Assembly (NCBI GenBank): GCA_007117035.1
Contig: SKHG01000029.1
Span: 1-34,346 of the forward strand
Direction of reading: 5' to 3'
Source of the DNA: Candidatus Campbelliibacteriota bacterium
Lineage (GTDB): Bacteria; Patescibacteriota; Minisyncoccia; Phycocordibacterales; CSBR16-193
Length of the DNA stretch: 34,346 nucleotides
The notes under the pieces were generated by a model that worked only from the letters and a program-made list of their open reading frames with translations, was not told the origin of the DNA and did not search any database. This document shows positions 8,922-21,190 of the stretch, one piece after another. Numbering within the stretch: position 1 is the first letter of the stretch; each line of letters begins with the position of its first letter. The translations under genes and the position numbers were made by a program.

Positions 8922-8992
8922 TAACTCGTAGTTCAATAGGTAGAACACTCATCTCAGGATGAAAGATTCGGGTTCAATTCCCGACGAGTTAG
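8922..8992 (+). tRNA. tRNA with abnormal anticodon arm (isotype uncertain, possibly tRNA-Trp derivative)
   Basis: Acceptor TAACTCG/CGAGTTA (7 bp perfect), D-arm GTTC-AATAGGTA-GAAC with GG, T-arm TCGGG-TTCAATT-CCCGA; anticodon arm CTCAT-CTCAGG-ATGAA has a 6-nt loop and C-A mismatch. No encoded CCA. Confidence 0.72.
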
Positions 8993-8996
8993 CTCC

Positions 8997-17668: not shown

Positions 17669-20600
17669 ATGAACAAAAAAGAACGATTAAAAAGTACGGA
17701 GTCTGAGAGCAACAACTCTTCACACTCTGAAAGAGAAACAAAAATTTTGGCTTTTTGGGAGAAGGAAAATATTTTTCAAAAAACATTAGAGAAACCGTCA
17801 CCGAACGGCAACTTTGTTTTTTACGATGGACCACCGTTTGCTACAGGTTTACCACACTATGGTCATGTCTTACCTGGAACAATAAAAGATATAATCCCAA
17901 GATTTGAAACTATGCGCGGAAAATTTGTGCGTCGTGTTTGGGGGTGGGATTGTCATGGTCTACCAGTTGAAAACCTGATTGAAAAAGAGCTTGGCTTGAA
18001 GAGTAAAAAAGATATTGAAGAGTATGGAGTCGAAAAATTTAACCGAGCCGCTAGAGAAAGTGTTTTGCGTTACGACAAAGATTGGAAAGAGATAGTTCCG
18101 CGACTAGGTCGTTGGATTGATATGGAAAAAGCTTATCTGACCATGGATACAAACTACACCGAGTCTGGATGGTGGGCTTTTAAAGAGTTATACAACAAAG
18201 GTTTGGTGTATAAGAGTTTTAAGTCTATGCATATTTGTCCAAGGTGTGAGACAACTCTTTCAAACTTTGAGATAAATCAAGGTTATAAAGATATACAAGA
18301 CATCTCGCTTACAGCTAAGTTTAGGTTAACTGATCCGCAGAAGGTTGTTGAGACCGATAAGGTAGTTTCTTTTTTAGCTTGGACTACTACACCATGGACT
18401 CTTCCAGGTAATGTCGCTTTAGCTGTGGGTAGTGACATCTCTTACAGTGTTTTGGAGTCTGAAGGCGAATGTTTTATTTTGGCTACCGAGTGCTTGGAGA
18501 AAGCAATGAAAGAAAAAGAGTACAAAAAGATAAAAGAACTTAAAGGCCAAGACCTTGTTGGTCTTTCCTACACTCCGATTTTTGATTATTACTTTGATAA
18601 GGTTGAGAATAAAGAGAACGGTTGGCAAGTTTATTCGGCAGATTTTGTGAACACCGAAGATGGAACCGGTATTGTGCATATTGCTCCAGCTTTTGGTTCA
18701 GATGACTTTGATTTACAGGTAAAGCACGAACTACCTTTTGTCCAACATGTTGGGTTCAACGGAAAGTTTAACGACGAAGTATCTGATTTCAAAGGTCTTT
18801 TTGTAAAGCTAAAAGAAAATCATCAAGTAGCTGATATTGAAGTTATAAAAAACCTGGCTGGACGAGAACTACTTTTCTCTAAAGAAAAGATTAGTCACTC
18901 CTACCCACACTGTTGGCGTTGTGATACTCCACTTCTAAACTACGCAACAGACTCTTGGTTTATTGCTGTAACCAAATTCCGAGACACTCTAATCGAAGAA
19001 AACAAAAAAGTTAGTTGGGTGCCAGAGCATGTCGGCCGAAATCGTTTCGGTAAATGGTTAGAAGAGGCTCGAGACTGGTCTATCTCCCGAAGTCGTTTTT
19101 GGGGATCACCAATTCCTGTTTGGCAATGTGATTCATGTGATGATGTTCAGGTTATAGGTTCAGTAAAAGAGATTAGACAAAAAAGTAACAACCAGTATGA
19201 AGTTATGCGACACGGTCAGGCAGAGAACAATGTTTCTATGATTTTGAATTCGGATCCTGAGTTCGAACACCATCTAACTGAGACTGGAATTGAGCAGGTT
19301 AAAAAAACAGCCAAAGAGTATAAACAAAAAAAACCAGATATTATTATCAGTTCAGACTTTGTTAGAACTCGAGAGACTGCAGAATTGTTTGCTTCTGAGA
19401 TTGGATTACCTAAAGAATCTATTTTGTTCGATAAACGGCTTCGAGAGATGGATTTTGGAGAACTTCATCTTCAGTCAGTTGAAAAATATCGAAATTATTT
19501 TCCTAACTGGCAAGATCGATTTGAGAATCCTTTACCTAAAGGTGAAAGCTTTAATGATATAAAAATCCGCATGGGAGATTTGCTTGATGATCTGGAAGAA
19601 AAATATAAAGATAAAAAAATTCTGTTAGTTTCTCACGAGACTCCCATCTGGCTTCTGTATTCGGTTGGGGAGTCTGCTGACAAAAATCGTTGTATAGATA
19701 TTAGGGGAGACAAAGAGGACTTTGTTAAAAATGCTGAGATTTGTGAACTTCCGTTTTATAAATACCCACATAACGAAAAACGCGAATTAGATCTCCATAG
19801 ACCATACATTGATCAGGTTAAGCTTCCTTGTAAGTGTGGGGGAGAGATGAAAAGAATTCCCGAGGTTTTCGACACTTGGTACGATTCTGGCTCGATGCCT
19901 TTTGCTCAAGCTCATTATCCTTTTGAAAACAAAGCTGAGTTTGAAAAAGAGAAAAGCCCGCTATTTCCAGCCAACTTCATTGCCGAAGGTCAGGATCAAA
20001 CACGAGGTTGGTTCTACACACTCCTAACACTTTCATCAGTTCTTTTTGGATGTTCACCATTTAAAACAGTGGTGGTTAACGGAACAATCTTAGCTGAAGA
20101 TGGTCGAAAGATGAGTAAGAGATTGAAAAATTATCCCGAAATAATGGATGTTGTAAATCGTCATGGAGCTGACGCATTGAGGTATACCTTGATGTCTATG
20201 CCGGCAGTTAAGGCTGAGGACGTTGCTTTTTCTGAATCCATGGTCGAAGAGTCAGTTAAGAAGGTTATTGGTCGGGCTTTAAATGTCTTGTCTTTCTTCG
20301 AGATGTATCAAGGTCAAGATGTTGAATCCTCTCGTGAATCAGATAATGTTTTGGACAGATGGATTATTTCAGAAGTCGATCGTCTTGGTCAGGGTGTTAC
20401 CGAAAACATTGAAGGTTATCAGATTGACAAAGCAACTCGTCTTTTTGGTGATTTTGTTGATAACATCTCAACTTGGTATCTTCGTCGTTCTCGTGACCGA
20501 ATCAAGAGTCAGGGAAAAGACAGAGAGCAGTCTCTGGGTACCCTTCGTTATGCACTAAATCGTTTTGCTTTGCTTTCTGCACCGTTTATTCCATTTCTGG

Positions 20601-21190
20601 CGGAGCATATATATCTAAAGGTAAGAAAAGATAACGATCCACAGAGTGTTCATCTAGAAAGTTGGCCAACAGAATTCAATCAAGAGTTGGGTCTTCTTAA
20701 AGACATGGTAGAAGTTCGAACAGCAGTTTCTTTGGGTCTGGAACAAAGATCAAGAAACCGAATAAAAGTTCGACAACCTTTAAAGAGTGCCTCCTTCAAG
20801 AATCTTTCAGAGAGTATTGTTAAAGATAGCGATATGCTTGAATTAATTCGTGACGAACTCAATGTTAAAGAAATCATTGTCAAAAAAGACCTTCTAGAGG
20901 AAGTTGAGCTGGACACAAATATCACAGAAGATCTAAAGCAAGAAGGTTATGTTAGAGAAATTGTTCGTAAACTTCAAGACAGTAGAAAAAATGCTGGTCT
21001 ACAACCAACTCAGAAAGTTATTCTTTCTGTTGAGAGTTCTGATGAAGCTAAACTAATAATGAGTCGAGCTGAAGAAATTCTTAAAGAGAGAGTTGCTGTT
21101 AGTGAGATTAAATTTATAGACGAACTACTAGAGTCTGAAGAGCTCAATCTAGAAAACCTAAACCTAAAACTTCAAATTGATGTTTTGTAA
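17669..21190 (+). CDS. ileS: Isoleucyl-tRNA synthetase (type 2-like) with inserted histidine phosphatase domain
   Basis: 'PFATGLPHYGHVLPGTIKD', 'GWDCHGLPVE', 'WTTTPWTLPGN', 'DWSISRSRFWGSPIPVWQC', 'KMSKRLKNYPE'; insertion of ~190 aa with RHG, RTRETA and SHE motifs. Confidence 0.97.
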   Translation: MNKKERLKSTESESNNSSHSERETKILAFWEKENIFQKTLEKPSPNGNFVFYDGPPFATGLPHYGHVLPGTIKDIIPRFETMRGKFVRRVWGWDCHGLPVENLIEKELGLKSKKDIEEYGVEKFNRAARESVLRYDKDWKEIVPRLGRWIDMEKAYLTMDTNYTESGWWAFKELYNKGLVYKSFKSMHICPRCETTLSNFEINQGYKDIQDISLTAKFRLTDPQKVVETDKVVSFLAWTTTPWTLPGNVALAVGSDISYSVLESEGECFILATECLEKAMKEKEYKKIKELKGQDLVGLSYTPIFDYYFDKVENKENGWQVYSADFVNTEDGTGIVHIAPAFGSDDFDLQVKHELPFVQHVGFNGKFNDEVSDFKGLFVKLKENHQVADIEVIKNLAGRELLFSKEKISHSYPHCWRCDTPLLNYATDSWFIAVTKFRDTLIEENKKVSWVPEHVGRNRFGKWLEEARDWSISRSRFWGSPIPVWQCDSCDDVQVIGSVKEIRQKSNNQYEVMRHGQAENNVSMILNSDPEFEHHLTETGIEQVKKTAKEYKQKKPDIIISSDFVRTRETAELFASEIGLPKESILFDKRLREMDFGELHLQSVEKYRNYFPNWQDRFENPLPKGESFNDIKIRMGDLLDDLEEKYKDKKILLVSHETPIWLLYSVGESADKNRCIDIRGDKEDFVKNAEICELPFYKYPHNEKRELDLHRPYIDQVKLPCKCGGEMKRIPEVFDTWYDSGSMPFAQAHYPFENKAEFEKEKSPLFPANFIAEGQDQTRGWFYTLLTLSSVLFGCSPFKTVVVNGTILAEDGRKMSKRLKNYPEIMDVVNRHGADALRYTLMSMPAVKAEDVAFSESMVEESVKKVIGRALNVLSFFEMYQGQDVESSRESDNVLDRWIISEVDRLGQGVTENIEGYQIDKATRLFGDFVDNISTWYLRRSRDRIKSQGKDREQSLGTLRYALNRFALLSAPFIPFLAEHIYLKVRKDNDPQSVHLESWPTEFNQELGLLKDMVEVRTAVSLGLEQRSRNRIKVRQPLKSASFKNLSESIVKDSDMLELIRDELNVKEIIVKKDLLEEVELDTNITEDLKQEGYVREIVRKLQDSRKNAGLQPTQKVILSVESSDEAKLIMSRAEEILKERVAVSEIKFIDELLESEELNLENLNLKLQIDVL
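19190..19780 (+). other. Histidine phosphatase (phosphoglycerate mutase-like) domain within IleRS
   Basis: 'YEVMRHGQAENNVSM', 'DIIISSDFVRTRETAELFA', 'DKRLREMDFGELH', 'ILLVSHETPIWLLY' in frame between 'VIGSVKEI' and 'LDLHRPYIDQV' of the synthetase. Confidence 0.92.

Follow-up and report, generated by a model that had tools for sequence, protein, structure and literature searches.

The isoleucyl-tRNA synthetase (IleRS) of a Paceibacteria-like patescibacterium carries a complete branch 1 histidine phosphatase (HP) domain inside its second zinc ribbon, and the most probable reading of this architecture is an active phosphomonoesterase permanently tethered to a working type-2 IleRS. The gene lies in the window, the whole stretch of 34,346 nucleotides that was analysed (Table 1), and its carriers are tiny, mostly uncultured bacteria (Patescibacteria). 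The reading is supported by the invariance of the catalytic residues across inserts with a median identity of 38%, by a confident autonomous fold that matches known HP folds, by wide retention in the family, order and class of the host, and by recurrence at other IleRS sites, in tandem pairs and in a loop of valyl-tRNA synthetase (ValRS). Both domains are known; as far as checked, what is undescribed is that the phosphatase is inserted within the synthetase, that this arrangement is conserved across a class and that it has spread to ValRS. Searches of open-access papers yielded no account of a phosphatase inside IleRS or ValRS.

The host synthetase

The IleRS frame is uninterrupted over its 1173 aa, as the initial annotation had proposed, and its product scores 880.1 bits against the NCBIfam model TIGR00392 (curated cut-off 621.4), which assigns it to the type-2 IleRS. 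Pfam places tRNA-synt_1, PF00300 (His_Phos_1), Anticodon_1 and DUF5915 in that order along the product, a HIGH-like PHYGH motif lies near aa 62 and KMSKR at aa 814, and both the editing domain and the C-terminal DUF5915 extension are present by Pfam and by alignment with PDB structures. The best Foldseek matches of the product are Priestia IleRS2 (8c9d) and T. thermophilus IleRS (1ile), and AlphaFold2 models the whole protein with a pLDDT of 91.3 and a pTM of 0.83. The catalytic, editing, zinc, anticodon and C-terminal parts of Priestia megaterium IleRS2 (8c8u/8c9d) and 1ile align with the host enzyme, but these structures have a short turn where the host IleRS has about 197 phosphatase residues. 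It is the sole IleRS found in the host genome (812,790 bases, 96.6% complete) and is therefore presumably functional, a working type-2 enzyme by its sequence. Between 13005 and 29017 the window groups glyA, tmk, a dUTPase gene, argS, ileS and a RecO-like gene, together with genes for a class II synthetase (proS-like) and an M16 peptidase and metG. ARAGORN predicts, at 8922-8993, a tRNA that has a two-base anticodon and no determined identity.

Table 1. Features of the ileS gene and of its inserted phosphatase domain, in window coordinates.
Feature	Position	Strand	Evidence
ileS, type-2 isoleucyl-tRNA synthetase with internal histidine phosphatase, 1173 aa	17669..21190	+	Open frame; TIGR00392
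N-terminal IleRS part: PHYGH, editing domain, first zinc site, first half of second zinc ribbon	17669..19180	+	Pfam, PDB alignment, cysteine columns
C487, C490 (first half of second zinc ribbon)	19127-19138	+	Cysteine columns
Inserted histidine phosphatase (branch 1), aa 505-705	19181..19783	+	PF00300; AlphaFold2; Foldseek; empty site in relatives
M513 of RHG region	codon from 19205	+	Coordinates
R514-H515, RHG motif, nucleophilic histidine	19208..19213	+	Invariant in 56-row and 57-row alignments; 148/148 aligned inserts
R566 of RTRETA motif	19364..19366	+	149/149 aligned inserts
E593 of LREMDFGE, presumed proton donor	19445..19447	+	148/149 aligned inserts
H656 of SHE	19634..19636	+	149/149 aligned inserts
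C-terminal IleRS part: zinc-ribbon second half, KMSKR, anticodon-binding domain, DUF5915	19784..21187	+	Pfam, cysteine columns, coordinates
C721, C723 (second half of second zinc ribbon)	19829-19837	+	Cysteine columns

Position and fold of the insertion

The phosphatase-like domain suspected within the synthetase is matched by Pfam PF00300 at aa 513-667 (E 2.7e-33, 115.7 bits, gathering cut-off 21.7). It had been placed just before the zinc ribbon, which proved slightly off, as the insertion lies inside the ribbon, between C487-x2-C490 and C721-x-C723. The expectation that only a short linker is normal at this point held: the spacing from the GSxxEL helix to DLH(R/K)xxxD is 197 residues in ileS versus 0-9 residues in insert-free IleRS from the host order and phylum, with the exception of one locus (L102, genome G697) that has about 75 unrelated residues at the site. 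The linker of this exception looks low-complexity and is perhaps a remnant or another insertion. GC content is 35.8% in the insert and 39% in the flanks, with GC3 at 29% and 29-33% respectively, and values so close to those of the flanks do not point to a recent foreign origin.

The insert is predicted to fold independently, since AlphaFold2 models the excised domain (to 19792) with a pLDDT of 96.6 and a pTM of 0.92. The predicted three-layer alpha/beta fold is matched by Foldseek to the metal-independent phosphoserine phosphatase 4ij6 (TM about 0.75), Rv2419c, the riboflavin-pathway phosphatase 9mmh, PhoE and CobC, and a profile search likewise puts the phosphoserine phosphatase/Rv2419c/riboflavin-pathway/PhoE/CobC group on top. 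Fold and catalytic residues are thus common to the insert and to the named branch 1 enzymes (4ij5/4ij6, PhoE 1h2e, CobC 6nru/6e4b, HFP 9mmh and Rv2419c), but these are free proteins of about 200-230 aa, whereas the host domain is internal to another enzyme and only about 21-25% identical to them. The insert falls below the NCBIfam equivalog cut-offs for dPGM_arch (82 of 225 bits), CobC (69.5 of 162.9) and PspA (58 of 350), and the last of these scores leaves a PspA-type phosphoserine specificity unsupported.

Conservation of the active site

All the catalytic elements named by the initial annotation (the motifs that hold R514, H515, R566, E593 and H656) are present, with the codon positions as it stated them, and their conservation in relatives, on which the claim could have failed, is essentially complete in about 149 aligned inserts (Table 1). 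The lone deviation at E593 is probably that of L105, whose domain match is split, and in a set of 79 inserts each of the five residues is kept in 79/79. N508, S562 and R634 are likewise invariant in the 57-row alignment. This invariance accompanies a pairwise identity among inserts that falls to a minimum of 22%, with a median well below the 51% of the synthetase core. The catalytic residues are also better kept than the zinc cysteines of the host ribbon that surrounds them, which are retained in only about 34/56 of the insert-bearing IleRS. The active site is, to judge from these alignments, under strong constraint, and invariant catalytic residues, diverged inserts and frequent loss of zinc cysteines are not the combination expected of a domain that serves just as a spacer. 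We infer that the predicted phosphatase domain is active and that selection maintains the activity, beyond the fold alone. Of the proposal that a catalytically competent phosphatase sits in an essential synthetase, the insertion and the complete set of catalytic residues are thus confirmed, and the activity itself is a prediction from sequence. Its suggested consequences, a link between aminoacylation and the metabolite state or protection against a phosphorylated inhibitor, are conjectures.

The insert is best read as a complete, self-folding phosphatase of the PhoE/CobC/phosphoserine-phosphatase kind, carried on the second zinc-ribbon hairpin. In the HP superfamily, catalysis proceeds through a phosphohistidine, with an acidic proton donor and phosphomonoesterase activity as the outcome. 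By this mechanism a small phosphomonoester would most likely be hydrolysed, with H515 taking up the phosphate to form the phosphohistidine, E593 acting as proton donor, and R514, R566 and H656 binding phosphate. The synthetic and editing parts of the synthetase are kept, and the phosphatase would be their permanent tethered partner. A nucleoside 5'-monophosphate, for example AMP set free during aminoacylation or an NMP that has been damaged, is a fairly unlikely guess at the substrate. This guess draws on a few neighbourhoods, in which free HPs of the phylum, only distantly related to the insert, adjoin Ham1-family, weakly NUDIX-like or deaminase genes.

Distribution and history

A search across genomes for IleRS with an internal His_Phos_1 domain found the architecture widely in the host class and scattered elsewhere in the phylum. 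The insert is present in 4/4 genomes of the host family, in almost every one of 148 genomes of the host order and, among the matches listed for the host class, in most. Six genomes of the order appear to be without it, five of them confirmed by direct reading, and their existence implies that the job of the domain is dispensable or replaceable. Across a phylum sample of 145 genomes the insert occupies the zinc-ribbon site in 20, comprising 9/9 class members and 11/136 genomes outside the class. Named carriers belong to Parcubacteria-type lineages (Nomura-, Zambryski-, Taylor-, Kaiser-, Adler-, Yanofsky-, Colwell-, Wildermuth- and Doudnabacteria).

On a tree of the IleRS core (fasttree), presence and absence of the insert change about nine times, which points to frequent gain, loss or gene exchange; the L092 row of this tree is void because the longest frame taken was not the synthetase. 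A single origin of the zinc-ribbon-site inserts is not rejected (AU p 0.26, leaving out L172-L175, whose IleRS frames are truncated or broken), and several independent gains at this site are therefore not claimed. Inserts at other sites are necessarily separate events. Three apparent carriers outside the phylum were rejected. Loci labelled Spirochaetia (L111) and Burkholderiales (L184) encode IleRS that share 60% and 73% identity with the patescibacterial enzymes and probably come from mislabelled MAGs, and the neighbouring frames of an Actinomycete locus (L183) show a free CobC in a cobalamin cluster preceding ileS rather than an insert.

Recurrence at other sites and in other enzymes

Histidine phosphatases occur in IleRS at two sites beyond the zinc-ribbon site, and also as tandem pairs. 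Family f230 (L094, L095 and L096) has two per IleRS, in proteins of 1466-1530 aa, the second located after DLHKxxVDxI and the motifs of both looking intact. The IleRS of genomes G760 and G466 carries the phosphatase between the KMSKS region and the anticodon domain, in G466 (L188/L189 loci) accompanied by a GNAT domain, and the same genome encodes a ValRS with two tandem histidine phosphatases. ValRS of three genomes bears one or two phosphatases in the loop homologous to the zinc-ribbon site of IleRS. The phylum sample of 145 genomes thus contains the domain in IleRS (20 at the zinc-ribbon site, one at another site) and in ValRS (three), and none was seen there in any other synthetase. In one ValRS insert (L191, genome G464) the second catalytic His is replaced by Ser (VTSEII) and the Glu by Asp. 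Judged by its residues, phosphatase activity is not universal among the ValRS copies, and the loss of the second catalytic His makes a non-catalytic role possible in some.

Elsewhere in the phylum HPs form end-to-end fusions with pyruvate kinase and with a 2-hydroxyacid dehydrogenase, metabolic enzymes for which a partner of the phosphoglycerate mutase (PGM) type makes sense. The host genome has a free, phosphoglycerate-mutase-like HP gene (208 aa, G000:C21) whose product groups with these fused HPs. This separate gene rules out the idea that the insert is the only phosphoglycerate mutase, or PGM-type enzyme, of the cell.

Two IleRS (L098 of genome G764 and L106 of G321) contain another stretch of roughly 185 aa inserted into the editing domain, for which no confident family was found. 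That of L106 is weakly serine-hydrolase-like, and a CYTH assignment for that of L098 has no Pfam support. Several leucyl-tRNA synthetases (LeuRS) of the order (e.g. in genomes G052, G016 and G053) are encoded by open frames no longer than about 640-720 aa, which suggests that their editing domain is partly or wholly missing.

Alternative readings

The tethered phosphatase could be a passenger: a surface loop may simply tolerate a phosphatase that does an unrelated household job, the link with isoleucine being accidental. This is a sub-case of the preferred reading, a tether without meaning, and is plausible at roughly one chance in three. The host LeuRS (1117 aa; L107:699-4052, G000:C21 about 45198-48548) itself holds serine-hydrolase (PF06821) and NUDIX (PF00293) inserts around its editing domain, and match extents across the LeuRS of the order place a NUDIX insert in about a quarter and the hydrolase in 3/78. 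Class Ia synthetases therefore seem generally receptive to inserted enzymes in these bacteria. The GNAT domain in the IleRS of G466 and the fusions of HP to enzymes other than synthetases point the same way. IleRS with GNAT is also described by a family model (NF040702) and resembles the host enzyme in having an extra enzymatic domain, but the type of domain differs, and the host IleRS, at 303 bits against a cut-off of 1999 and with no GNAT, is not a member. A further parallel is the mycobacterial RNase HI-CobC protein (MSMEG_4305/Rv2228c), in which a CobC-type phosphatase is likewise joined to a nucleic-acid enzyme, although by end-to-end fusion and in Actinomycetales only, whereas that of the host is an internal insertion. 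The domains of MSMEG_4305 are separable in vivo and their fusion has been ascribed to drift (PMC7466739). However, the HP insert is retained far more widely than the other inserts, and its recurrence in IleRS and ValRS is not random.

That non-random placement is what a local quality-control role would explain, since a phosphatase acting on a molecule that arises at or near the synthetase (a tRNA with a phosphate on its 3' end, an inhibitor in phosphorylated form or a side product of Ile/Val activation) would be needed in IleRS and ValRS in particular. The restriction of HP to these two synthetases in the phylum sample (n=145), the insertion loop that they share, and the use of several different sites and of tandem pairs are consistent with it. 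However, no residue and no gene context hints at a tRNA or an inhibitor as the substrate, and the domain is predicted to fold alone. This role is unlikely, at about one chance in five.

A regulatory domain whose target is the phosphorylated synthetase or some other phosphoprotein, for instance after attack by a kinase on the KMSKS region, is improbable. The insert does lie within the ribbon preceding KMSKR, and some HPs target phosphoproteins, as SixA is reported to do with NPr (PMC7948535), but the closest folds are mostly small-molecule phosphatases. An assembly chimera, raised at the outset as a way in which the finding could fail, or a degenerate remnant can be dismissed almost entirely, as no support for either was found, the frame is continuous, the catalytic residues are invariant, and the same architecture in many independent assemblies rules out the chimera.

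Significance

Few enzymes are as conserved in living organisms as synthetases, and here an essential one keeps, through a large bacterial class, a further active site that is strictly conserved. Such class-wide retention strongly hints at an activity not yet described, in translation or in nucleotide metabolism. The presence of the domain at several sites and in ValRS offers natural replicates, and the insert-free relatives natural controls. As the hosts are hard to culture, a soluble, separately expressible bifunctional enzyme would also be a direct route to their biochemistry. More speculatively, and with rather low probability, these proteins may form a distinct patescibacterial class of bifunctional branched-chain synthetases, in which the phosphatase of IleRS and ValRS dephosphorylates a product, an inhibitor or a damaged tRNA end arising at the synthetase. 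If true, translation in these bacteria would include a quality-control or control step directed at phosphate for which no counterpart is known.
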